38,644 nucleotides of DNA from Acidobacteriota bacterium. GTDB lineage: Bacteria > Acidobacteriota > Blastocatellia > Pyrinomonadales > Pyrinomonadaceae. The notes under the pieces were generated by a model. It did not search any database. It saw only the letters and a program-made list of their open reading frames with translations, and was not told the origin of the DNA. This document shows positions 2,571 to 20,245 of the stretch, in pieces (position 1 is the first letter of the stretch; each line of letters begins with the position of its first letter). The stretch covers positions 1 to 38,644 of the forward strand of contig JADYZI010000182.1 of assembly GCA_020853255.1 (NCBI GenBank), written 5' to 3'. A program made the translations under genes and the position numbers.

Positions 2571-3800
2571 CTAAGATTTTTCCGGAAAGAGATTCGGGAA
2601 CCAATAGCCGGCCGCGTGGGGAGGGAACCCCAGGCGCAGAGGGCTCCGATGCCAGTCTGTGGTCGGTATGAGCAGACCTTCATCGATCAATGACTTGGCA
2701 ACCGTCCTCGCACTACGTTCACTCATACCTACGATCTCTACTATCTTGTTTCGCGGCAACTCACCAACAATGGCCGCTTCGCGCAGAATGAACGATGCCC
2801 GCGGGTGCATCGGCAGCGCTTTCACTCCTTTCTCGTCAACGATTGATCCTTCCGATCGCTTTGCGACATAGCTGTCCATTCGAGGCAAAAGGTCACCAAG
2901 GGCAAGGATCGAAGACATATATTTAGTCTGGTCCAGGCAGACATCAAGGAAGAATTTGCAGAACTCGGTCAAAGTTCGATTTGATAGATTTCCTCTTCCG
3001 TCAAGATCGTCCTCTCTCGGAAAATCCGCTGCGTCGAGATTCTTCTTGTATTCTCGATTTCTACGGGCCAAACCGCGACTTACATTCCATAGCCCATAAC
3101 CCTCCAAACCTATTCTTCGAAAGAACGCGTCCGTAAAAAGACGGGCGACGCGTCCGTTTCCATCCAGGAAAGGATGTATCCACATCAGACGATGATGAGC
3201 CGCTGCGATCGCGACTATCTTTTTTGTGCCATGAAGCTGCTCGGGGTCGTAAAACTCGTCGAATCTGCACAGGAATGCAGGAATGGCTTCGTGCTCGGGC
3301 GGAAGATGCTGGCCGACCGCGACCGGTCGACGACGAAACTCGCCAGCCTCAACCCACTCCTTGTTTCCATCCTCACCTTCAACCCACCGAAGGCTCTCCG
3401 GCATTTGCGTGTAAAACTCTCGGTGGATCCAAAGAAGAAAATCAGGGCCGGAGACATCCGTTTCTGGTTCGTTCTCCAGTCTAAGATCGATCTTTTTCTG
3501 AACGTCAATATGAATAAGACTTTCGATCTGCCGGTCTCTCTTCGCCGGATCGTTCGAGTAGTCCTTATGCATCGCCCGCTCAACATCGATGGGATGCGTA
3601 TTATTGCCCTCGATCAAGTTGCTGTAATAGCTGTTAATGACCCTTAACAATTCGCGGACGCCGTCTAACGTGATCGGGTGCAATTTGGTGGCAAGGCCAG
3701 CCGATGTCTGAGCCAGGTCAAACGCCGTATTCTCCAACTCACGGGTATCGGCAGGTATTAATGGTTCGAATTGACTGATCTCTGTATAGAATGTCGACAT
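2571..3800 (-). CDS. Fic-domain protein (AMPylase-type) with C-terminal winged helix
   Basis: Residues 209-217 read HPFLDGNGR followed by VAR, the complete catalytic HxFx(D/E)GNGRxxR motif, so transfer of a nucleotide or similar group onto a protein hydroxyl is expected. Near residues 60-65, SNLIEG matches the (S/T)xxxE(G/N) inhibitory motif, placing the protein in the self-inhibited group with an N-terminal inhibitory helix. The last 70 residues (RNKIVEIVGMSERSARTVAKSLIDEGLL) look like a winged HTH that could bind its own promoter. I chose the ATG at 3800; an in-frame TTG at 3839 would add 13 unremarkable residues. The gene is convergent with the integrase. Its substrate cannot be told from sequence. 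Confidence 0.9.
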   Translation of the reverse strand: MSTFYTEISQFEPLIPADTRELENTAFDLAQTSAGLATKLHPITLDGVRELLRVINSYYSNLIEGNNTHPIDVERAMHKDYSNDPAKRDRQIESLIHIDVQKKIDLRLENEPETDVSGPDFLLWIHREFYTQMPESLRWVEGEDGNKEWVEAGEFRRRPVAVGQHLPPEHEAIPAFLCRFDEFYDPEQLHGTKKIVAIAAAHHRLMWIHPFLDGNGRVARLFTDAFFRRIGLEGYGLWNVSRGLARRNREYKKNLDAADFPREDDLDGRGNLSNRTLTEFCKFFLDVCLDQTKYMSSILALGDLLPRMDSYVAKRSEGSIVDEKGVKALPMHPRASFILREAAIVGELPRNKIVEIVGMSERSARTVAKSLIDEGLLIPTTDWHRSPLRLGFPPHAAGYWFPNLFPEKS

Positions 3801-3810
3801 CTCTTTTATA

Positions 3811-3921
3811 TTGCCGGTAACGCTGCAAGTAACTGACAAGCGTAAGTGGTAGCAATATAGAGAGAATATGTCTATTTGAGCGTTGTGTAAAGCTAAACTA
3901 TTGCCGGTACATTTGCCGGTA
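3811..3921. promoter_or_regulatory. Three TTGCCGGTA repeats upstream of the Fic gene
   Basis: The nonamer TTGCCGGTA occurs at 3811-3819, 3901-3909 and 3913-3921, all in one orientation. The last two lie 12 bases apart, a little over one helical turn. They surround the likely promoter and leader of the Fic gene, so they are candidate operator sites, possibly for its own winged-helix domain. The link to that domain is inference. Confidence 0.4.
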
Positions 3922-5306: not shown

Positions 5307-5748
5307 TCATTCTACATTCGAAGGATACTTCTTGGATCAGATGGGGAGGCAGGACGAATGTAAGAGCGCGAGTAGCGGGTGCGGTTGGGGATAGAGAGTT
5401 GCCATGACGCAGACTTCCTACATTTTTCACTACAGTGACAAAATGGGCGCTCCAACGAATTTGCTGAAACGCCCGTAAATACTGGAGCCGGTGATTAGAC
5501 CCGAACTTACGATCTGATGATTACAAATCGTTCCGATCAACTTTCCACCCAGTGACAGTGCAGTGTTATCTGCGTGAATGCGAGGAATGACCAACGGGTC
5601 GTCCAGGTCGGCTTGGGCAGACATCGTTTCGTGAAAACAAAGAATGAATTATTTTCGAAACAGATAAACCTTTGTCGTCCTCGACTACACTTCTATATAG
5701 AACATTCACATTTCTGTAACCCGTCGGTAATACTGAATATAGACGAAT
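5307..5748. other. Intergenic region upstream of the sigma-fusion gene
   Basis: No gene is seen. The stretch contains copy 2 of the direct repeat (5512-5573) and an AT-rich leader (5640-5748) that should hold the promoter of the sigma-fusion gene. A TGTAAC hexamer near 5715 resembles some extracytoplasmic-sigma -35 boxes, but no matching -10 is clear. Confidence 0.4.
5512..5573. repeat. Imperfect 61-bp direct repeat, copy 2
   Basis: This is a near copy of 2334-2394 in the same orientation. The best-conserved blocks are ATTACAAATCGTTCCGA, AACTTTCCACC and GCAGTGTTATCTGC. It stands 175 bases before the sigma-fusion gene and marks the right edge of the Fic cassette. Confidence 0.75.
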
Positions 5749-8700
5749 ATGCTCAGGCAGCCATTAAAATTGGTCGAGAACCATACCCACGAGGAACTGT
5801 TCCTCGAAAGGTACGACCGTCTAATGAAATGGGCACTGCATTTGGCGGGAAACGACAAGCAGGCCGCGGAGGATCTGCTGCAGGACGCGTTTGTGCAGTT
5901 CACGTTCTCGCGGCCGGAGATTTCGGGGATCAATAACGTCGAGTCCTATATATATGGGATACTCCGACACCTCCATCTTTCGCAGATCCGCAAGGCGGCA
6001 AATCGGCAATGGCAGCAATTCACGCTCCTTGAGTGTGATTCGGCCGAGATCGGCCTGCGTAAAAGTAATATCCTCAACGACCTCCAGGTTCGGGACGAGC
6101 TTCGTGGCATCTGCGAGTTCGCATGTTTTCGCAAGGAGTCGTCAAAAGCGGCGAGCGTCCTGATTCTTCGTTTCTTCCACGGCTATTACCCACGCGAGAT
6201 CGCGGACGTGCTGAACAATTCGATCCAGACCGTAAAGGTTTGGCTCCATACCGCCCGGTCCGAAGCAAAGACCTATCTGAACGATCCGGAAAAGCTCAGA
6301 TTCCTCAGAGCGGAAAAACCTAAGCAAAAGCCCGATATCAAGCAGTATGACGACAGCGCCGGCGATACAGCCGCGATACTCGCCGAGCTGAGGCGAACGA
6401 TCTTCAATTCGATCAGCGGCCAGCATTTGACAGAAGATCGGCGGAAAGAGTTATACGGAAAGTCGATCGATGAGATCGCAACGGCGCTCAGCGTGGGCGA
6501 ACTTGCTCACCTTGTGAGCTGCGCGCCCTGTCTGGACAACGTAAACACTACTCTCGATCTGCCGCTCCTGGCTGACCGATATCCTACCGATATGATAGGG
6601 AAAGATTCGAACAAGAACGATCCCAGCGGCGGAAGCCCGGGGCCGCGCGGGGGCGACGGAGGTGGTTCGGGCAGTTCAAACGGACCCGATGCCGGAGAGC
6701 TTATGCGGATGAGAGCCCGCGAAGTTTTCGAGCATTTTCCGCGCGAACTGCAAGTTGCCGTGAACGGCTACATTCACACGGCGCAGAAGGTCAATTCTGC
6801 GAAGAGCGAATTTTCTCTCTCTCTTGGTGATGGCGGGGCCATAGACTTTATTGAAATCTACGGTGGACACCAGACGAGGCTGATGCTGATGCCGGTTACC
6901 GCTCCGCCGCCTGAAGGGCCGCTTGAACTACGAGAAAGCATCGAGTTAAGCGAGAACCGCCGACTCGATCTTCAGCTGATATTCGGTAGCCCCAAGCCAA
7001 CGCTCCAGGTCATCTATTCCGATCCGACGTTCGTGCCCGATGATGTTCATGCGAGTTTCGCCAACCTGGAACTATCGGAGATAAATCGGCTTTCTTCGGA
7101 TTCGGTTAGGGAGGCGGTCGTTACTCATACATCCCAAACGGCCAACCCCGATCTTCGTTATCCTGATCCTCGAATTAGCACGCTGCTTGCTCCCGACAAG
7201 CTTCCTCGATGGTTCGATCTGCGCTCGTGGCTGAATCCATTTCGCCTCACGATAGCTTTTGGGGCCCTGCTTGTGTCTTTTGGCCTTATTTATTTCAACC
7301 AGCCGACCACGATCTCGCCGCCGCTAACGGCCGAAGATGTTCTCGGCAAAGCCAGAACAACAGAGGCCGGAATGATCGCATCCGCCGACAAAGTGGTCCA
7401 CCGCAACTACCAGGTCGAAGAATGGTCAGGCGGTAGTCTGCGTTCGAGAAAGCGGGTGGATCAATGGACGAAGACCGATGCATCCGCACAGCGGGTCTAT
7501 GACGAGGCCGGCAAGATGATCGCCGGGGAATGGAGCGATTCCAAAGTCCGCCGCGTCTATACGCAAGGCCGGAAACTCGTAACGACCGAAATATCCGCTC
7601 GCCACGATGCCTCCGCCACCGGACCGGAGCCGACTGTTTCCGGATTCACGGAGTTTGTCCGGTCATACAAGCCGCAGGAAGACTTTTCGCTCGAGGAAGC
7701 ACCGAAAACTTACACCATCGTATACAAGAACGATTCCGCAGAGCCGGCAAAGATGCCCGGTCAATTGCTTCTCGCATCCTTGACGCTCGACCGTCAAAAC
7801 TACGCACCGCTCTCCCAATTGATCGTCTTGCAGATCGGAGACGAGACACGTGAATATCGCATTTCGGATGTGCGCGTTGAGCAGAAACCTCTCGCGGGCC
7901 TTTCGCCGCTGGTCTTCCTCCCCGAAGAGGAGTTACTTCGTGGAGCTGTCAACGTTCTCAAGCCGCTTGAGATCACTGTACCTTCTCCGGCGACCTTTGA
8001 TCCGACGATATCCGACCCAAATAAGGCAGCTCCCGTGATGGCGACACTCGAAACCGAAGTTGAGGTATTTCGTGCCCTCGACGCCGTCAACGCTCTCTCG
8101 GGTGATCAAATTACCGTGACACGATTAGCCGACGGGCGCCTTCGCGTTACCGGCATTGTAGACACCACGTCACGAAAGACGGAGATACTCAACGCACTGA
8201 GTCCGATCAAGAACGCATCCGGGCTTAGCGTCGACATTCAAACTGCCGCGGAAGCTGCCAAGAAGATTCGGCCGAGCAATTCAGGCGAGAACATAACGCT
8301 CGATAGCGTCACGGCCCAGGTCGAACAATTCCTGCCCGTAGAGCCGGAGCTAAGGGCATACTTTGCAAAAAAAGGAATCGCCGGCGATGAGCTGAATGCA
8401 GGTATCAGGAATTATGCCGGCGCTGTCCGTGATCGCTCGCGCGCATTGCGGCGAAACGCACTCGCCCTTAAGCAGCTTGCGGAGCGTTTCTCGCCCGCCG
8501 AGATGGAACAGCTTGACCCCGCAAAACGCGATCAGTGGAAAGCCCTTTTGCGTTCCAAGGCAGCGGCGGTCGCGGGTGATGTGCGCTCGCTCGAATCGCA
8601 GCTTTCCGCAGTAGGCCTATCGGCCGGTGGCGGTGATTCCGGGGGGCTCGATGTCCGCGACGCTTCAGATCTTAGCAAGGCCGCTCAGCGGCTTTTCGGT

Positions 8701-8844
8701 TTGGCTGCCGCCTGCGACGCCCAGGTCGGACAGTCGTTCTCGATCTCCAGCAAGGGCAAGGAGATGGCTACGGTAAGGTCGGTTCAGTTCTGGCGAAATC
8801 TTCGCCAGATGGCCTCTCTCTCCGCCGAGATTCAACGTTTTTAG
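5749..8844 (+). CDS. ECF sigma factor fused to anti-sigma zinc motif, TM anchor and periplasmic sensor
   Basis: The 1031-residue protein begins with an ECF sigma factor (residues about 15-190): region 2 in RYDRLMKWALHLAGNDKQAAEDLLQDAF, and region 4 in LRFFHGYYPREIADVLNNS with QTVKVWLHTARSEAK. Residues 254-261 read HLVSCAPC, an exact HxxxCxxC motif of zinc-binding anti-sigma (ZAS) domains. A Gly/Ser-rich linker (about 285-310), a cytoplasmic beta-rich part and one membrane span (about 500-518, FGALLVSFGLIYF) follow. Outside is an RseB/anti-sigma-sensor-like region (about 550-620: RVDQWTKTDASAQRVYDEAG), a BON-like segment near 790 and a helical tail. Sigma, inhibitor and sensor in one chain is unusual; proteolysis or a conformational change would be needed to free the sigma part. 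The next gene is a TonB-dependent receptor. ATG 5749 has only a weak ribosome site. Confidence 0.85.
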   Translation: MLRQPLKLVENHTHEELFLERYDRLMKWALHLAGNDKQAAEDLLQDAFVQFTFSRPEISGINNVESYIYGILRHLHLSQIRKAANRQWQQFTLLECDSAEIGLRKSNILNDLQVRDELRGICEFACFRKESSKAASVLILRFFHGYYPREIADVLNNSIQTVKVWLHTARSEAKTYLNDPEKLRFLRAEKPKQKPDIKQYDDSAGDTAAILAELRRTIFNSISGQHLTEDRRKELYGKSIDEIATALSVGELAHLVSCAPCLDNVNTTLDLPLLADRYPTDMIGKDSNKNDPSGGSPGPRGGDGGGSGSSNGPDAGELMRMRAREVFEHFPRELQVAVNGYIHTAQKVNSAKSEFSLSLGDGGAIDFIEIYGGHQTRLMLMPVTAPPPEGPLELRESIELSENRRLDLQLIFGSPKPTLQVIYSDPTFVPDDVHASFANLELSEINRLSSDSVREAVVTHTSQTANPDLRYPDPRISTLLAPDKLPRWFDLRSWLNPFRLTIAFGALLVSFGLIYFNQPTTISPPLTAEDVLGKARTTEAGMIASADKVVHRNYQVEEWSGGSLRSRKRVDQWTKTDASAQRVYDEAGKMIAGEWSDSKVRRVYTQGRKLVTTEISARHDASATGPEPTVSGFTEFVRSYKPQEDFSLEEAPKTYTIVYKNDSAEPAKMPGQLLLASLTLDRQNYAPLSQLIVLQIGDETREYRISDVRVEQKPLAGLSPLVFLPEEELLRGAVNVLKPLEITVPSPATFDPTISDPNKAAPVMATLETEVEVFRALDAVNALSGDQITVTRLADGRLRVTGIVDTTSRKTEILNALSPIKNASGLSVDIQTAAEAAKKIRPSNSGENITLDSVTAQVEQFLPVEPELRAYFAKKGIAGDELNAGIRNYAGAVRDRSRALRRNALALKQLAERFSPAEMEQLDPAKRDQWKALLRSKAAAVAGDVRSLESQLSAVGLSAGGGDSGGLDVRDASDLSKAAQRLFGLAAACDAQVGQSFSISSKGKEMATVRSVQFWRNLRQMASLSAEIQRF

Positions 8845-8874
8845 GTCGGATTACGGGCCACCACCCGCGAATCA

Positions 8875-8883
8875 GGGGGGGGG
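8875..8883. repeat. Nine-G homopolymer upstream of the receptor gene
   Basis: A run of nine G lies 80 bases upstream of the receptor ATG (8963), in the gap after the sigma-fusion gene. Such tracts can slip during replication and alter promoter spacing. Whether this one does so cannot be told from one sequence. Confidence 0.5.
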
Positions 8884-8962
8884 TGATGCGATGTTTCTGG
8901 TTATAAACAGACAAGGGGACGCTAGAACGCAATCTTAATTCTAATTGAAAAGGAAAACTAAA

Positions 8963-11900
8963 ATGCTCAAACTCAGCACGTTTCGACTTCTATTGCTCCC
9001 TTGCTTCCTACTCGTATCCGTGTGCCTTCCAACGGCGGCTCAGACCAGCAGCGCAACTCTATCCGGCGTCGTCGAGGACTCCCAAGGAGCGGTTGTTCCG
9101 AATGTCAAGATCACCGTCACCAATCCTGCGACCGGTCTCGAACGTTCGGTGACAACGGGCTCTGATGGTTCATTCGTTGTGCCGCTCCTTCCGCCCGCGA
9201 CATATACGCTCGAGGCGGCCGCAACTGGGTTTAAGCGTCTTCAAGTTCCAGATCTGATCCTAAACGTTAGCGACCAGCGTTCTATGAGGATTCGACTTGA
9301 AGTAGGGGACGTTGCCGGGGTTGTCGAGGTGCGTCCCGACGAGACTCTCGTGGACAACAATCCGGCCGTAGCGACGGCGATCGACCGCAATTTCGTCAAC
9401 AGCCTGCCGCTCAACGGGCGGAGCTTGCAAACCCTGATTCTGCTGGCTCCGGGAGTGGTTAATACTCCGACCGGTGGGGCCAGCGGTAACGTCGGGCAGT
9501 TCAGCGTCAACGGACAACGCACCAATTCCAATTATTTTACGATTGACGGGGTAAGCGGCAATTTTGCTTCTCCGAGAGGAACCGTCGGACAACAAGCGAG
9601 CGGTTCACTTCCGGCCACGAATAGTCAGGGCGGATTTTCCAACCTGGCTTCGGTCGATGCGATCCAGGAATTTTCCATCCAGACCTCGACTTTCGCACCG
9701 GAATTCGGCCGCTCACCAGGGGGACAAATATCGATCGTGACGAGGGGCGGAGAAAATAGATTTCGCGGCTCGCTTTTTGAATATTTCCGCAACGACGCGC
9801 TCGACGCCAATGATTTTTTCAATAACGCGAATGGTATTAAGCGTCAAGCCTTGCGCTATAACAATTACGGCGGCACCATCGGCGGACCGGTAATTCTTCC
9901 GCATTTCGGGGAAGGCGGCCCGATGGTCTGGAAAGGGACGGATAAAACCTTCTTTTTCTTTTCGTACGAGGGACAGCGGTTCCTTCTTCCGCAGCCGACT
10001 TTGAGCGTGACCGTGCCCTCGCTTTCCGCCAGGCAGAATGCCCCTACAGCCGTGTCACGCGCCATTCTTGATTATTTTCCGTTGCCCAACGGAGCGACAG
10101 TCAATGACGGTTTTGGCAATCCGGTCGGAGCTATATATACGACCGCGTTTTCCAACCTCAATAACTCCGATTCATACAGCGTGCGGATCGATCATAATTT
10201 GACCAAGAATATTTCGCTTTTCGGCAGAGTCAATCACGCTCCTTCATCGGCCAACACTCGCAACAGCGCCAATCCCTCGATCTTTAGCTCTTCGTTCTCG
10301 AACACCCAAACGCTCACCCTCGGCTCAACACAGTTATTCGGCAGCAAAGTGGTTAATGAAATTCGAGCCAACGCGAGCCGCAATCTTGCGGGCAGCGAGA
10401 ACATTCACGACGGTTTCGGCGGTGGCGTCGATTTTGATCCATATTTGCTGCTTCCTACAGGGATCGAGGCCGCAGGTTCTTACATACTGTTCGACCCCTT
10501 AATTTCTACACCTGTCGGAAAATTCACAAATACGGCGAATCAAAACCGCCAATTCCAGATAGTGGATAATATTTCGTTTTCTCTTGGTTCGCATCAGCTT
10601 AAATTCGGCGGAGATTACCGCTTGCTTCTACCGCTGAATAATCGCGGGAGCAACTCGATAAATGTCATTAATTTTTCAGCGTCGGAACTCTACGCCGGTT
10701 CAGCCTTTTTGGTTACCTCCGACTCTAGAGCAAGTTTTACACCCCAAATAGAAACCTATGGATTTTACGGGCAGGATACCTGGAAGGCGAGTAAGCGGTT
10801 GACATTGACATTCGGTCTGCGGTGGGAAATAAATCCTTCTCCAACCGGACGCGGAGATAAAAAACCGTTCACGCTTTTATCACCCCCGGACCTGACAAAA
10901 CTAGACCAATCCGGACTTCAACTGGCCCCTGATGGTACGCCTTACTATGAAACCGACTTTACTAATATTGCCCCTCGCTTCGGGCTGTCCTACTTGGTTA
11001 GCGACAAAGCGGATCAGGAAATGGTCATTCGCGGCGGAATCGGCGTCTTCTACGATCTCGGACAATCCGGATTCGGTAATGTCGGTTTCCCGTATTCAAA
11101 GTCCAATACGTTATTTGGTTTGCCGATACCGCTGCCAGCTTCGGCGTTTACCTATACTCCATTAAATTTTGTCCCAAGCCCGACCAATCGCGCCAGTTTG
11201 ACGGTGGCTGGGCCGGATTATACCGCCCCGCGAACATATCAGTGGAATCTGACGGCAGAAAGATCACTCGGCAAAGATTCCGCCGTGTCGGTGGCATATG
11301 TAGCTGCTCAGGGTCGTGATCTGGCCCGAGCGTTAAGCCTGAGCTTCTCGGCAACTCCACAAGTCGGGACGTACTTTAGTCCAAATTATTCAAACGTTAC
11401 CTATATCGATAATGGCTCGGAATCAGACTATCACTCGATGCAGGTGCAATATACCAAAAGGTTGAGCAAGGGATTTCAGGCGCTTGCCAATTATACCTGG
11501 GCGCATTCGATCGATAATGCGTCCACGGACACATCTTTTGATGCTCCCGGATTTATATACGATCAGGACATTCACCGCGGTGATTCTAATTTTGATCTTC
11601 GGCACAATTTTACTGCGGCTCTGACCTATCAAATTCCGGTTCCCAAAATCGGAAAGTTCGGTGAAGCTCTCCTGCGGAACTGGTCGCTTAACGGCATTTT
11701 TATCGCGCATAGCGGTCTCCCGTATACCGTCCTGCTTACTGAGACAAACGCTTTCGGTTTCATCAATTCGGTCCGCCGTCCGAATCTGACCGGTCAGCCG
11801 TTGTATATAGAAGATCCGACGGTAGCCAGCGGAAGACGCTTAAATCAGGCCGCCTTCGACTTCACTGTCCCCCCGCCGACGATGGGGAGCCTTGGTAGAA

Positions 11901-12205
11901 ACGCTTTACGTGGCGAGAATTTCTGGCAGGTGGATTTGGGGCTGCATCGCGAGTTTCGTCTCGGCGAGAAGGTAAATCTTCAGCTCCGTGGTGAAGCCTT
12001 TAATCTTTTTAACCACCCCAACTTTCTTTATCCGAATGTTGTTAATGCGGTTCGTAACGCCAACGGGACCGTCACAACTTCGCCTCTGTTCGGCCGGATC
12101 ACGTCCAGTGCTGCTCGAGCCTACAGCGCCGGTGGGGGGTACAGCCCCTTGTTTCAAAGTGGCGGGCCGCGGTCGCTGCAGTTCGCGGCGAGACTGAGTT
12201 TTTAG
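8963..12205 (+). CDS. TonB-dependent receptor, Oar/CarboxypepD_reg type
   Basis: This is a 1080-residue outer-membrane transporter. A signal peptide (LLLLPCFLLVSVCLPTAAQ) is followed by a carboxypeptidase-regulatory-like beta-sandwich (ATLSGVVEDSQGAVVPNVKI to GFKRL, about residues 28-95). The plug domain has LPLNGRSLQTLILLAPGV and FSVNGQRTNSNYFTIDG, and a long barrel ends in RLSF with a terminal Phe, the usual assembly signal. The ATG at 8963 has AAGGA nine bases upstream; an in-frame TTG at 8945 is less likely. The family is greatly expanded in Acidobacteriota. The ligand is unknown; the neighbouring periplasmic peptidase and thioredoxins suggest a peptide or another redox-sensitive substrate, which is inference. 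It is probably the main target of the upstream sigma fusion. Confidence 0.93.
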   Translation: MLKLSTFRLLLLPCFLLVSVCLPTAAQTSSATLSGVVEDSQGAVVPNVKITVTNPATGLERSVTTGSDGSFVVPLLPPATYTLEAAATGFKRLQVPDLILNVSDQRSMRIRLEVGDVAGVVEVRPDETLVDNNPAVATAIDRNFVNSLPLNGRSLQTLILLAPGVVNTPTGGASGNVGQFSVNGQRTNSNYFTIDGVSGNFASPRGTVGQQASGSLPATNSQGGFSNLASVDAIQEFSIQTSTFAPEFGRSPGGQISIVTRGGENRFRGSLFEYFRNDALDANDFFNNANGIKRQALRYNNYGGTIGGPVILPHFGEGGPMVWKGTDKTFFFFSYEGQRFLLPQPTLSVTVPSLSARQNAPTAVSRAILDYFPLPNGATVNDGFGNPVGAIYTTAFSNLNNSDSYSVRIDHNLTKNISLFGRVNHAPSSANTRNSANPSIFSSSFSNTQTLTLGSTQLFGSKVVNEIRANASRNLAGSENIHDGFGGGVDFDPYLLLPTGIEAAGSYILFDPLISTPVGKFTNTANQNRQFQIVDNISFSLGSHQLKFGGDYRLLLPLNNRGSNSINVINFSASELYAGSAFLVTSDSRASFTPQIETYGFYGQDTWKASKRLTLTFGLRWEINPSPTGRGDKKPFTLLSPPDLTKLDQSGLQLAPDGTPYYETDFTNIAPRFGLSYLVSDKADQEMVIRGGIGVFYDLGQSGFGNVGFPYSKSNTLFGLPIPLPASAFTYTPLNFVPSPTNRASLTVAGPDYTAPRTYQWNLTAERSLGKDSAVSVAYVAAQGRDLARALSLSFSATPQVGTYFSPNYSNVTYIDNGSESDYHSMQVQYTKRLSKGFQALANYTWAHSIDNASTDTSFDAPGFIYDQDIHRGDSNFDLRHNFTAALTYQIPVPKIGKFGEALLRNWSLNGIFIAHSGLPYTVLLTETNAFGFINSVRRPNLTGQPLYIEDPTVASGRRLNQAAFDFTVPPPTMGSLGRNALRGENFWQVDLGLHREFRLGEKVNLQLRGEAFNLFNHPNFLYPNVVNAVRNANGTVTTSPLFGRITSSAARAYSAGGGYSPLFQSGGPRSLQFAARLSF

Positions 12206-15329: not shown

Positions 15330-17353
15330 TGGTATTTCGAAAATGGGCGCTTCTTCACTTGGCCTTTGCGGGAATTTTATGCTTCGTCGGCGCCGCTGAC
15401 GCGCAGAATCCAGTCTCGCTCTCAATGAGCGCTAAACCGGCGAAGGCGAAAGTCGGTGACAAGATAACTGCGCAGATTTCGGCGTCGATCAGCGGCGACT
15501 GGCACATGTATTCGATAACGCAGGGGGCGGGCGGACCGATCCCGACGCGCATCACGGTGGCGGGGGGCGGAGCCTTCAAAGCAGCCGGTGGAGCAACCGG
15601 CTCCGCCCCCCGCCGAGAGATGGATCCGAACTTCGGGATCATGACCGAATTCTACGCAGGTAGCGCACGGTTCACTGTTCCCGTGGCGGTGGACGCCTCG
15701 GCGCAACCCGGCCCGCAGACGCTGACAGTTAACGTCCGTTACCAGGTCTGCAACGAGACGTTGTGCCTTCCGCCGAGGACACTTAAAGTCTCCGCCCCGG
15801 TAGAGATCGTTGCGTCGAGCGACGCTCTCGTAATTGCTTCTCCTACCCCGGTTCCTGGCCCGACCGCAAGTCCTTCTCCTTCTCCGACGATTTCACCATC
15901 CCCCACCCCGACTATTGATCCGAATTCGAATGCTAACAGTATTGCCGGTCCATCTGACGGACCTCCTCCGCAGGTTGCGGACACAAACGCGTCCGATTTG
16001 AAGGCGAACGATCCACCGGTCACCGGCAATGACGTCGGGAAGGAAGCCTTGTGGTCATTCCTTTGGCTCGCAGTCGCGACCGGGGCTATTTCGCTGCTCA
16101 CCCCGTGCGTGTTCCCGATGATCCCGATCACGGTTTCGTACTTCACCAATCACGCCGCCGGCCGCCGGTCGCTGGCGATCCGCGATGCTTTGCTGTACGC
16201 GCTCGGGATCATCTTCACCTTCACGGCGATCGGGGTGACGCTGGCGGTGGTGTTCGGCGCGGCGGGGATCAACAACTTCGCATCGAGCCCGTACGTCAAC
16301 TTCGCCATCGCGGCGATCTTCATCGCGTTCGCCCTGAGTCTGTTCGGGGCGTATGAGCTGGGGATCCCTTCGGGCGTGATGACCAAGGTGGACGCCTTTG
16401 CACGAGGTAAGGAATCGAGCCGGATCCTCGGCGTGCTGCTGATGGGGTTTGTGTTCTCGCTCACGTCGTTCACCTGTACCGCACCCTTCGTAGGGTCGCT
16501 GCTAGTATTAGCGGCTGCGGGAGACTGGCTCTATCCAGTGGTGGGGATGCTCGCGTTCTCGAGCGTGTTCGCCCTCCCGTTCTTCGTTCTCGCTCTCGCT
16601 CCGCAGCTCGTCGCGCAGCTGCCCCGCTCGGGAGGGTGGCTCAACTCGATCAAGGTGGTGATGGGGTTCCTGGAGATCGCGGCAGCGATGAAGTTCATCT
16701 CCAATGTCGATCTCGTCCTGCACTGGGGGATCTTCACCCGCGAGGTCGTGCTGGCGAGCTGGGTCGCCGTCGCCGGGTTGATAACTCTGTACTTGTTAGG
16801 GATCTTCCAACTCTCGCACGATTCCAAACCGGAGCGCCTCGGCGCGGTGCGAGTGATGTGCTCGTTCTTGTTCCTCTCGCTGGGGTTCTACCTGCTGACC
16901 GGGTTGTTCGGAGCGAAGCTCGGGGAGTTGGAATCGTTTTTGCCGTATACGGCCGAGCAATCCACCGCCCCGGCCGGCACCGCGAAGGCCGCGGAAGCTG
17001 AGTGGATGAAGGATGACTACGAAGGAGCGTTGGCAAAAGCGAAGTCCGAAGGCAAATCGGTCTTCATCGACTTCACGGGCTACACCTGCACGAACTGCCG
17101 CTGGATGGAGGCGAACATGTTTCCCAAAGCGGAAGTACTTAAGGAGATGGACCGTTTCGTGAAAGTCCAGTTGTTCACCGACGGCGAAGGGGAGATCTAC
17201 GAGCAGCAGCAGAAGTTCCAGGAGGAGAAATTCGGGACCGTTGCTCTGCCGCTGTACGCGATCGTCGACGCAGCCGGGAATACCCGAGCGACCTTCCCCG
17301 GACTCACGAGGGATAAAGAAGAGTTTCTCAAATTTCTAAGATCGGCAGATTAG
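15326..17353 (+). CDS. dsbD: Thiol:disulfide interchange protein DsbD
   Basis: The protein has 675 residues and carries reducing power from cytoplasmic thioredoxin across the inner membrane. The periplasmic alpha domain ends near residue 165 with Cys142/Cys147 (YQVCNETLCLPP). A Pro/Ser/Thr linker (about 180-205) precedes the membrane core, which starts near 241, with about eight spans and the conserved Cys261 (LLTPCVFPMIP) and Cys384 (TSFTCTAPFVG). The C-terminal thioredoxin domain carries Cys588-Thr-Asn-Cys591 (FTGYTCTNCRWME). All six catalytic cysteines are present, so it should be functional. The likely electron acceptors are the TlpA-like, TPR-thioredoxin and stand-alone alpha-domain proteins encoded just upstream. 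Base composition is higher in GC in the membrane core than in the flanking genes. Confidence 0.93.
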   Translation: MMVFRKWALLHLAFAGILCFVGAADAQNPVSLSMSAKPAKAKVGDKITAQISASISGDWHMYSITQGAGGPIPTRITVAGGGAFKAAGGATGSAPRREMDPNFGIMTEFYAGSARFTVPVAVDASAQPGPQTLTVNVRYQVCNETLCLPPRTLKVSAPVEIVASSDALVIASPTPVPGPTASPSPSPTISPSPTPTIDPNSNANSIAGPSDGPPPQVADTNASDLKANDPPVTGNDVGKEALWSFLWLAVATGAISLLTPCVFPMIPITVSYFTNHAAGRRSLAIRDALLYALGIIFTFTAIGVTLAVVFGAAGINNFASSPYVNFAIAAIFIAFALSLFGAYELGIPSGVMTKVDAFARGKESSRILGVLLMGFVFSLTSFTCTAPFVGSLLVLAAAGDWLYPVVGMLAFSSVFALPFFVLALAPQLVAQLPRSGGWLNSIKVVMGFLEIAAAMKFISNVDLVLHWGIFTREVVLASWVAVAGLITLYLLGIFQLSHDSKPERLGAVRVMCSFLFLSLGFYLLTGLFGAKLGELESFLPYTAEQSTAPAGTAKAAEAEWMKDDYEGALAKAKSEGKSVFIDFTGYTCTNCRWMEANMFPKAEVLKEMDRFVKVQLFTDGEGEIYEQQQKFQEEKFGTVALPLYAIVDAAGNTRATFPGLTRDKEEFLKFLRSAD

Positions 17354-17455
17354 GGGCCGCGAAATTACGATAAAGAGCGAGGTTGACGTGAAATGCGCCT
17401 CGGGGAGTCGAAGTACGCGGATCTAGGCACCATTTTTACTAAGGAGACAGCAATA

Positions 17456-20245
17456 ATGCGGAATTCATACAGGCAAATAATCTATCTAACATTAACGATC
17501 GCACTTCTGCTACCGGCGCTCGTCCTCGGACAGTCGAATGGCAATCTACCAAATATCAACGTCACCCAATACCGTCTAAAAAATGGCTTGCAGGTCGTAC
17601 TGCACCAGGACAAGTCAACGCCGATCATCGCGGTGAATGTTTTTTATCACGTCGGTTCGAAGAACGAGACCCCGGGCAGAACGGGGTTCGCCCACCTTTT
17701 TGAACACATGATGTTCCAGGGGTCGAAGAATTACAGCAGTGACTATTTGAGTGCGATCGACGATATGGGTGGGAGCGTCAACGGCACTACCGATGAAGAC
17801 CGCACCTGGTACTTTGAAACGGTGCCGTCCAATTTCCTCGAAAGGACACTTTATTTGGAAGCCGACAGAATGGGAAATCTGCTGGAGGCGATGACCCAGG
17901 ACAAGCTGGATAATCAGCGAGATGTCGTAAAGAACGAGCGACGGCTTCGCGTGGACAATCAGCCTTACGGAACATCGTTCGAGAGGATCGGAGAGACCAT
18001 GTACCCCGAAGGTCACCCGTATCATTGGTCTGTGATCGGTTCCATGGCGGATCTTTCGGCGGCCTCCATGGAGGATGTGAAATCGTTCTTCCGGACATAT
18101 TATGTTCCCAACAACGCGACCTTGGTGCTGGCGGGCGATTTTGACGAGAACCAAGCCAAGGCTTGGATCGAGAAGTACTTCGGCCCGCTCGCGAAGGGCG
18201 ACGATATCAAGAGGCCAAACGATCCTCAGCCGAAACTGAACAGTGAAATACGCAAGACTTACGAAGACGCAGTCCCTTTCCCACGTCTTTCTATGGTTTG
18301 GCACGGCAGCCCACAGTTTTCCGCGGACGAGGCAGCTCTCGATACTTTGGCCTCGATCCTTTCTTCGGGAAGAGGCTCCCGCCTGCAAAGCAATTTGAAC
18401 TATGGCAAGGAGTTGGTCAGCCAGATCTTCGCCAGCAACCCAACCAACGAAATAGGGGGGTTATTTCAGATCACCGCCACCGCACGGCCCGGAAAGACGC
18501 TTGAGGAGATCGAGAAAGAGATCGACCAGGAGATCGAGCGGATCAAGAAGCAGCCGCCGACGGCCGAGGAGATGCAACGTGCGTTGAACGGGCGCGAATC
18601 ACAATTCATCTACGGATTGGAATCCGTTTCAGGCAAAGGAGCCCAACTAAGCAGTTATGCTGGATATCTAGGAAAGCCGAGTTACTTCCAAACCGATCTG
18701 GACCGGTATCGCAAGGTTACCCCGGCGGACGTTCAGCGGGTCGCCGATCAGTATTTGACGGTGAATCGGCTGGTGATGAGCTATGTGCCGAGCAAAGCCC
18801 CCGCATCCCGACCGAGCCCGGCAGCGGATAAACCAGCCTCAGGCAAGGCCGCCGAACTGGACAAGGACTCGATCGCCAGACAAAAAGCGATGCTGCCGAA
18901 GGCGGGACCGACTATAAAATTCGCGTTGCCTTCGATCGAGAAGCACAAGCTTTCGAATGGACTGAATGTTTGGTTCGTTAGAAATCCGGAGCTGCCGATC
19001 GTCTCGATGAATTTGGTTTTCAACTCAGGTTCGATTCTCGACTCGAACGAGAAGTATGGCGTCGCGTCCTGGACCGCTTCGATGCTCAATCAAGGAACCT
19101 CATCACGTTCGGCGGTGGAAATTGCCAATCAGTTGCAGTCGATCGGCGCGTTCTTGAACGCGGGTTCGGGTTGGGATTCGAGCAACGTGTTCATGCAAAC
19201 GCTCACCAAGAACCTCGATCAGGCGTTGAACATCTACGCGGATGTCATCCAAAATCCGTCATTTCCGGTCGCGGAAATCGAGTCTCTCCGGCGCCGTTCG
19301 ATCATTGGATTGGCCCAACGCAAGTCCCAACCAGGTGCGGTTGCCAACCTAGCGTTCAATAAAGTTCTCTACGGCGATCAGCCTTACGGACGTGACACCA
19401 CGGAAAGTACGCTCAAAGCCATCGCTCGGGATGATCTTATAGGTTTCCATAAAACGAATTACGTTCCGAACAACGCGACGTTGATCGTGGTCGGGGCAAT
19501 TGAAAGTGAGGCGATGCTGGCGAAGCTGGAAAGCTCGCTCGGCAAATGGAAGAGCGGTCGGCCCGTTTCCATTCCGGCATCGGCCCAGACTATGCGGGGC
19601 AAGCCCGGAATCTACATAATCGACAAACCGGGGGCCGCTCAGTCAACGATTGCGGCGGGACTGGTCGGGATCGACAGGAGCAACCCGGATTATTACGCGG
19701 TCCAGCTCCTGAACTCTATTTTGGGCGGTGGTTCGTCGGGGCGTCTCTTTAAAGTTCTGAGAGAAGAGAAGGGATATACATATGGGGCCTACAGCTCGTT
19801 CACGAGCCGAAAAGGTCCAGGCCCCTTTCGTGCGGGCGGCGACTTCCAGACGGGTTCAACGAAAGAATCAGTAGAGGAGTTGATGAACCTTATCGCAGGT
19901 GTGCGCGGTTCGGCATCGGCGACTCAGGAAGAACTTGATTCTCACAAACTCGCCATAATAAATAGCTATCCGCAAGGCTTCGAGACGACCGGTTCGGTTG
20001 CGGGTCAATTGTCGAATCTGGTCACCTTCGGGTTGCCGGACACCTACTTCAACGACTACATCCGAAACATCAGCGCAGTGAGCCTTAAGGATGTTTCAAG
20101 GGTTGCGAACAAGTACCTGGATCCGTCGAAAATGGCGATCGTGATCGTCGGTGACCGGACCGAGATCGAACCGAAGCTGAAGGAACTGCCATATGCGATC
20201 ACGATCTTGGACGCTGACGGCAATGCAATTGTGGCGACGCGTTGA
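17456..20245 (+). CDS. M16-family zinc metallopeptidase, two-domain, exported
   Basis: The 929-residue protein starts at ATG 17456, which has AAGGAG upstream and leads directly into a signal peptide (IIYLTLTIALLLPALVLGQ); a 21-residue upstream extension is unlikely. The first M16 half carries the inverted zinc motif His80-Leu-Phe-Glu83-His84, with Glu161 in KNERR as third ligand. The second half (from about residue 490: KLSNGLNVWFVRNPELP) is the inactive partner and contains the substrate-binding GYTYGAYSS segment. Such clam-shell peptidases degrade or trim peptides in the periplasm. Its place at the end of the receptor/thioredoxin cluster suggests processing of an imported or secreted disulfide-containing peptide, which is inference. 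Confidence 0.92.
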   Translation: MRNSYRQIIYLTLTIALLLPALVLGQSNGNLPNINVTQYRLKNGLQVVLHQDKSTPIIAVNVFYHVGSKNETPGRTGFAHLFEHMMFQGSKNYSSDYLSAIDDMGGSVNGTTDEDRTWYFETVPSNFLERTLYLEADRMGNLLEAMTQDKLDNQRDVVKNERRLRVDNQPYGTSFERIGETMYPEGHPYHWSVIGSMADLSAASMEDVKSFFRTYYVPNNATLVLAGDFDENQAKAWIEKYFGPLAKGDDIKRPNDPQPKLNSEIRKTYEDAVPFPRLSMVWHGSPQFSADEAALDTLASILSSGRGSRLQSNLNYGKELVSQIFASNPTNEIGGLFQITATARPGKTLEEIEKEIDQEIERIKKQPPTAEEMQRALNGRESQFIYGLESVSGKGAQLSSYAGYLGKPSYFQTDLDRYRKVTPADVQRVADQYLTVNRLVMSYVPSKAPASRPSPAADKPASGKAAELDKDSIARQKAMLPKAGPTIKFALPSIEKHKLSNGLNVWFVRNPELPIVSMNLVFNSGSILDSNEKYGVASWTASMLNQGTSSRSAVEIANQLQSIGAFLNAGSGWDSSNVFMQTLTKNLDQALNIYADVIQNPSFPVAEIESLRRRSIIGLAQRKSQPGAVANLAFNKVLYGDQPYGRDTTESTLKAIARDDLIGFHKTNYVPNNATLIVVGAIESEAMLAKLESSLGKWKSGRPVSIPASAQTMRGKPGIYIIDKPGAAQSTIAAGLVGIDRSNPDYYAVQLLNSILGGGSSGRLFKVLREEKGYTYGAYSSFTSRKGPGPFRAGGDFQTGSTKESVEELMNLIAGVRGSASATQEELDSHKLAIINSYPQGFETTGSVAGQLSNLVTFGLPDTYFNDYIRNISAVSLKDVSRVANKYLDPSKMAIVIVGDRTEIEPKLKELPYAITILDADGNAIVATR

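Follow-up and report, generated by a model that had tools for sequence, protein, structure and literature searches.

A fused sigma factor of Acidobacteriota with a likely built-in brake, an outer LolA/RseB-fold sensor and a TonB-type receptor as its neighbour

Architecture and relatives of the fused protein

Can a gene switch, its brake and its outer sensor be parts of one membrane-spanning protein, and how would such a switch be released? The question is raised by a reading frame of an Acidobacteriota bacterium, studied here in a stretch of 38,644 nucleotides (the window). An earlier note on this DNA had proposed that one polypeptide combines an ECF sigma factor, a zinc motif, a membrane anchor and an outer sensor, which is borne out by Pfam, by structure models and by 19 near-full-length relatives. 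In this soil-type bacterium, the switch, a likely brake and the sensor are parts of one protein, laid out as follows.

5699..5725, +: candidate promoter of ECF type, AGAACATT-N16-GTC, preceding the fused gene; the block is common to the window and locus L095
5749..8844, +: fused sigma / ZAS-like / membrane span / LolA-RseB-fold / BON-like / helical protein, 1031 aa
5803..6000, +: region 2 of the sigma factor, residues 19-84 (PF04542 at E 5.8e-7, exceeding the cut-off)
6148..6258, +: region 4 of the sigma factor, residues 134-170 (PF08281 at E 4.8e-7, exceeding the cut-off)
6367..6552, +: ZAS-like helical segment, residues 207-268, putative ligands H226, H254, C258 and C261 (structure model, alignments, profile match to unfused ZAS)
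6601..6690, +: flexible linker rich in Gly, about residues 285-314 (pLDDT and Gly content)
6745..7020, +: cytoplasmic beta domain, residues 333-424, without clear fold match
7240..7296, +: predicted membrane span, residues 498-516
7318..7953, +: outer LolA/LolB/RseB-fold domain, residues 524-735 (fold match)
8041..8256, +: BON-like segment, about residues 765-836 (limits from predicted secondary structure)
8341..8841, +: C-terminal helical region, residues 865-1031 (structure model)
8945..12205, +: partner TonB-type receptor (OMP_b-brl_4/CarboxypepD_reg), 1086 aa from the first TTG; ATG at 8964

The assignment to ECF sigma factors follows from regions 2 and 4, which both exceed the curated cut-offs, as does TIGR02937; beyond these two regions, none of the families among the seven Pfam hits at E up to 1 rises above its cut-off. 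A CxxxC pair, C122/C126 (window 6112-6114 and 6124-6126), lies between the two regions and is kept at C122 in 60 and at C126 in 55 of 65 fused sequences. In the full-chain model (mean pLDDT 72.4, pTM 0.47), most of the linker falls under a pLDDT of 50, and its median glycine fraction is 0.33 over 49 aligned rows versus 0.059 overall (lowest row 0.03). The beta domain between linker and span is conserved among relatives, and a separate model of residues 195-470 (mean pLDDT 69.8) gave no clear match for it in a fold search. The span itself, previously placed near residues 500-518, is predicted almost at the same site. As for the outer segments that had been called RseB-like and BON-like, the first stands: residues 524-735 match the LolA/LolB/RseB/MucB fold well above unrelated rows, with lipid carriers such as LprG also matched, at a sequence identity to RseB of 7 percent. 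The second is weakly matched (DolP/OsmY probability 0.97-0.98, E above 0.1).

A search of 5.8 billion proteins returned at least 20 relatives of the fused protein at E up to 1e-3; here, as in a second search with an unfused sibling, the scored candidates were those sharing most words with the query. Nineteen of the 20 listed cover at least 97 percent of the query, at 33-98 percent identity. Since these 19 align over nearly the whole chain and the zinc ligand set is kept in 63 of 65 distinct fused sequences, an assembly artefact, against which the earlier note had cautioned, can be dismissed; on this comparison, the reading frame 5749-8844 is one genuinely fused gene. Among the matches listed, the nearest named genome locus belongs to a Pyrinomonadaceae MAG (72 percent), and the window is itself probably from this family of the Acidobacteriota. 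Matches occur in 16 of 99 genomes of a Pyrinomonadaceae set; besides full-length genes, they comprise pieces at contig ends, a single gene split between frames and two short forms. They also occur in at least 7 of 297 genomes of a phylum set, a lower bound because two candidates per genome were scored; one of these seven (G228) is an unfused sibling.

The zinc-motif domain as a likely brake

The HxxxCxxC motif previously noted at residues 254-261 is accompanied by a fourth putative ligand upstream, and it is this (C or H)-H-C-C set that the 63 sequences retain. In the 65-sequence set, which takes in the window protein and two short sequences (P0021, P0028), we counted 57 CHCC, six HHCC, one CHFC and one gapped at the first position. 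In an alignment of 49 fused rows, 48 of them distinct, H254 and C261 are invariant and C258 is altered once. Position 226 holds C in 43 rows and H in the other six, and a swap solely between C and H is what a metal ligand would do. The motif is likewise present in all 43 unfused siblings of suitable length (from at least 52 hits), in which the sigma factor is encoded separately, with an upstream H in 40 and a gap at that site in the other three. One fused gene (L003 9914-12802, the same as L093 12707-15595) has its first ligand cysteine replaced (HIVSFRDC) and may have lost zinc binding; its paralogue in the same genome (L092) keeps the cysteine.

Is this domain a ZAS? In a profile comparison of the fused segment with ZAS domains of the unfused proteins, ZAS windows ranked first of 63 in two versions, with best scores of 26.1 (probability 56 percent) versus 15.1 for the top non-ZAS window in one and 20.0 (24 percent) versus 14.0 in the other; a global mode and plain hmmsearch gave weak results. 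zf-HC2 (PF13490) matched neither the window protein nor its segment at E up to 1. In unfused siblings the family appears below cut-off (L074, 7.2e-4; L106, 0.013), and six of the 52 listed hits to the unfused sibling carry it. The model of residues 195-470 predicts helices for the segment, and fold searches with it listed no ZAS. As this support for a ZAS is moderate, we call the domain ZAS-like. It is likely the built-in inhibitor of its own sigma factor. The fused gene of L095 has beside it, on the opposite strand (16647-18535), a stand-alone ECF gene and the gene of a ZAS protein of 435 aa; a stretch of this ZAS protein shares 43 percent identity with the N-terminal part of the unfused L106 protein.

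Two short forms consist of sigma and ZAS without the membrane part, namely L107 (344 aa) and L108 (279 aa). Their match to the window protein ends at residue 286 in L107 and residue 281 in L108, and a tblastn scan of 5.0 kb and 8.0 kb, respectively, revealed no additional piece of it. Neither has a receptor beside it, with 1.4 kb examined downstream of L107. A further protein, L109 (441 aa), stops at a contig edge.

Partner receptor and candidate promoters

Besides the window, 30 loci carry a fused gene (L095, L081-L094, L096, L097, L075-L080 and L110-L116), six of them from one genome (L075-L079 and L096) and one with a frame-split gene (L094). The window and 29 of these 30 loci have a TonB-type receptor gene 3' of the fused gene, directly next in 26 and after one small OMP gene in three (L081, L083, L084). 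L075, the sole locus without a receptor call, ends there with its contig; other receptors are truncated where the contig stops (L082, L077) or lie in pieces or short frames (L094, L087). All 27 receptors scanned (26 beside fused genes and that of L106) carry OMP_b-brl_4 and CarboxypepD_reg. STN is missing from the 13 families listed for them at E up to 0.01; by this sequence test, the classical receptor contact is missing. The family is frequent in these genomes, with 27-67 OMP_b-brl_4 matches in each of ten (pieces rather than genes and, in seven of the ten, the best 40 of up to 104 candidates), yet too infrequent for chance to account for 29 of 30 adjacencies. The receptor gene is probably co-transcribed with the fused gene, because the gap between them is at most 58 nt in 17 of the 26 loci in which it comes directly next. 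On the other side, the window has genes for a Fic/DOC-family protein (2571-3839, -) and a phage-type integrase (1089-2315, +) upstream of the fused gene.

With the receptor probably co-transcribed, the interval 8845-8962, which had been put forward as a promoter region, is a poor choice, and the ECF-like block common to the window and L095 lies instead at 5699-5725. GAACATT-N15-17-GTC occurs a single time in the window, both strands scanned. We tentatively take this block as an ECF-like promoter of the window clade, from a two-sequence comparison chosen after looking. In another sigma-tree clade of six members (L081, L082, L084-L087; support 99), GTGGGTT-N15-CGTCT(T/A)A stands just upstream of the fused gene; this motif, too, was picked after looking and is confined to the one clade. 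The best dyad ending in CGTC was found in six of 28 regions, compared with a maximum of three in 100 simple shuffles that ignore relatedness. Across seven genomes and with at most one mismatch, the motif gave 15 matches versus six for a reversed control, and six of the 15, including all five exact ones, precede fused genes. The presence of an ECF-like motif upstream of the fused gene suggests autoregulation in this clade. Three further matches, in three genomes (L150, L151, L152), each precede by about 40 nt the same gene, whose 515-aa DUF4214 product has a signal-like start and is a candidate second target of the sigma factor; the remaining six of the 15 have no common pattern. Perhaps a small regulon extends beyond the fused gene.

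Proposed release of the sigma factor, known systems and unfused forms

Taken together, we consider it rather probable that the protein is a single-chain, receptor-coupled signalling sigma factor, braked by its own ZAS-like domain and probably freed by proteolysis. While the outer sensor is quiet, the ZAS-like domain would bind the sigma domain and hold it off RNA polymerase. A cue passed on by the partner receptor, or a ligand in the LolA/RseB-like pocket, would alter the outer domain; site-1 and then site-2 (M50) proteolysis would release the N-terminal sigma part, which would transcribe its own operon, receptor included. The Gly-rich linker between zinc motif and membrane speaks against rigid coupling and hence for proteolysis, and a precedent for proteolytic release is IutY (Pseudomonas putida, ECF243), reported to be activated by Prc and RseP (PMC5411451). 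M50 peptidases were found in ten of ten genomes, which is weak evidence because all 14 control genomes match too. In 21 fused loci, window included, the scan covered the nearest one or two genes that follow the receptor on its strand, and eight loci had a peptidase match (L095, L089, L091, L096, L097, L078, L113, L115), those of L113 and L115 being weak and under the Pfam cut-off. The M16 peptidase of the window, as the fifth gene after the receptor, is outside these eight.

A rival reading gives the receptor a smaller part. The outer domain alone could sense envelope lipid or lipoprotein stress in the manner of RseB, the receptor being a mere target, as might be read from the resemblance of its fold to LolA, LolB, RseB, MucB and lipid carriers and from the lack of STN hits in the receptors. 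The near-constant pairing with one receptor family points to a specific link rather than to a general stress response, and we regard this reading, compatible as it is with the proteolytic one, as rather unlikely. Release without proteolysis has also to be weighed. The conserved cytoplasmic beta domain between linker and span would suit a relay in which the outer and beta domains move the zinc domain through the membrane span; however, a Gly-rich linker modelled at low confidence separates the zinc motif from both, and proteolysis is used by the nearest single-chain precedent, so that such a relay appears improbable. Lastly, a redox or zinc-loss switch, presumably comparable to soluble RsrA-type systems, in which oxidation of C258/C261 would open the zinc domain and free sigma in place without receptor or proteolysis, agrees with the retained ligands, the soluble short forms, the well-kept C122/C126 pair, the thioredoxin and DsbD genes near the window gene and a reported strong reaction of singlet oxygen with HHCC zinc fingers of anti-sigma factors, but is quite improbable, as it accounts neither for the large, conserved outer part nor for the receptor and as relatives of those thioredoxin and DsbD genes occur in just two of the 30 other loci (L095 and L110; blastp E up to 1e-5, stretches of unequal length). 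The earlier note had argued for such a switch from these very neighbours; its fused chain with a likely inbuilt inhibitor holds, while the redox idea is deprived of neighbour support.

The single-chain, proteolytically freed sigma factor that we favour resembles several known systems in part. In E. coli, sigmaE, RseA and RseB provide an ECF sigma factor, a membrane anti-sigma factor and an outer LolA-fold sensor; these parts recur in the fused protein, but there they come from separate genes, and RseB shares only the 7 percent identity given above over the fold match. Single-chain sigma/anti-sigma proteins in print include ECF48, ECF52, ECF53 and IutY (PMC8999054, PMC5826349, PMC5411451). IutY likewise joins sigma and a membrane anti-sigma in one chain and works with a TonB-type outer receptor, IutA (PMC5411451, PMC8999054). 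As described there, it differs in its 374 aa and in belonging to the FecR-type cell-surface signalling group, whereas the fused protein has a ZAS-like inhibitor and a LolA/RseB-fold and BON-like outer part, and FecR is absent from its Pfam hits at E up to 1. ECF52 (SCO4117), ECF48 and ECF53 also unite, in a single chain, a sigma part, a zinc finger, one or more membrane helices and an outer extension, and proteolysis has been proposed for ECF52-type proteins with ECF48 and ECF53; unlike the present family, they are described as actinobacterial, and the cited passages make no mention of receptor pairing (PMC5826349, PMC8999054). ECF52 further differs in its proline-rich part and carbohydrate-binding domain, as outlined in the same sources; none of the seven Pfam hits of the fused protein at E up to 1 is a carbohydrate-binding family, and its outer domain matches LolA/RseB. 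In FecI-FecR-FecA, an outer receptor, a membrane regulator and an ECF sigma factor cooperate as proposed here, but they come from separate genes, the regulator is of FecR type and the receptor has a signalling domain for which our receptors gave no hit (PMC9249621). The pairing of receptor and regulator genes that marks FecR-type systems does recur, in the window and 29 of the 30 other loci.

What differs from all of these is a ZAS-like brake combined with a LolA/RseB-fold and BON-like sensor, a near-constant pairing with a receptor that gave no STN hit, the occurrence in Acidobacteriota and a swapping of sensors between fused and unfused forms. The architecture appeared in no title or opening of an abstract in the literature searched, and an ECF group covering the family may exist. 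It may even be, although we hold this somewhat tentatively, that cell-surface signalling here runs without FecR or a receptor STN, from a CarboxypepD_reg receptor to a single chain of LolA/RseB-BON sensor, ZAS-like brake and sigma, with the sensor as a plug-in part. If the favoured reading is true, the whole line from envelope to promoter, except the receptor, would lie in one chain in Acidobacteriota and offer a convenient way to test how a brake is released that is covalently bound to its target.

The same sensor, occurring both fused and unfused, also lends itself to a natural comparison. In L106, an ECF of 199 aa is followed by a ZAS-TM-LolA-BON protein of 620 aa, then by a receptor and an M16 peptidase; L074 has ECF, ZAS-TM-LolA-BON protein and a receptor in two frames; L072 and L073 pair an ECF with a ZAS-TM-LolA-BON-type protein, after which come large proteins that gave no barrel hit. 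In quick, unrooted trees, some built on distant alignments, 30 fused sigma domains split from five others (four unfused siblings and the separate ECF of L095) at an SH-aLRT of 100. The sensor trees (30 versus 4 and 63 versus 46 rows) need three changes between fused and unfused, two of them forced by starred branches. In the larger tree, a branch at 100 sets 53 of the 63 fused sensors apart, whereas the remaining ten are placed with the unfused ones. Since the sigma domains are one-sided and at least two changes are forced in the sensor trees, one type of sensor would have become attached to different sigma heads. The simplest reading of these trees would be that the sigma-ZAS head arose once and that outer sensors were exchanged at least once. 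In a tree of residues 205-430, nine fused genes with the unfused-like sensor fail to group (four changes, two forced). One genome, G004 (L072, L073, L075-L079, L096), has undergone an expansion, with six fused sigma genes and two unfused siblings.
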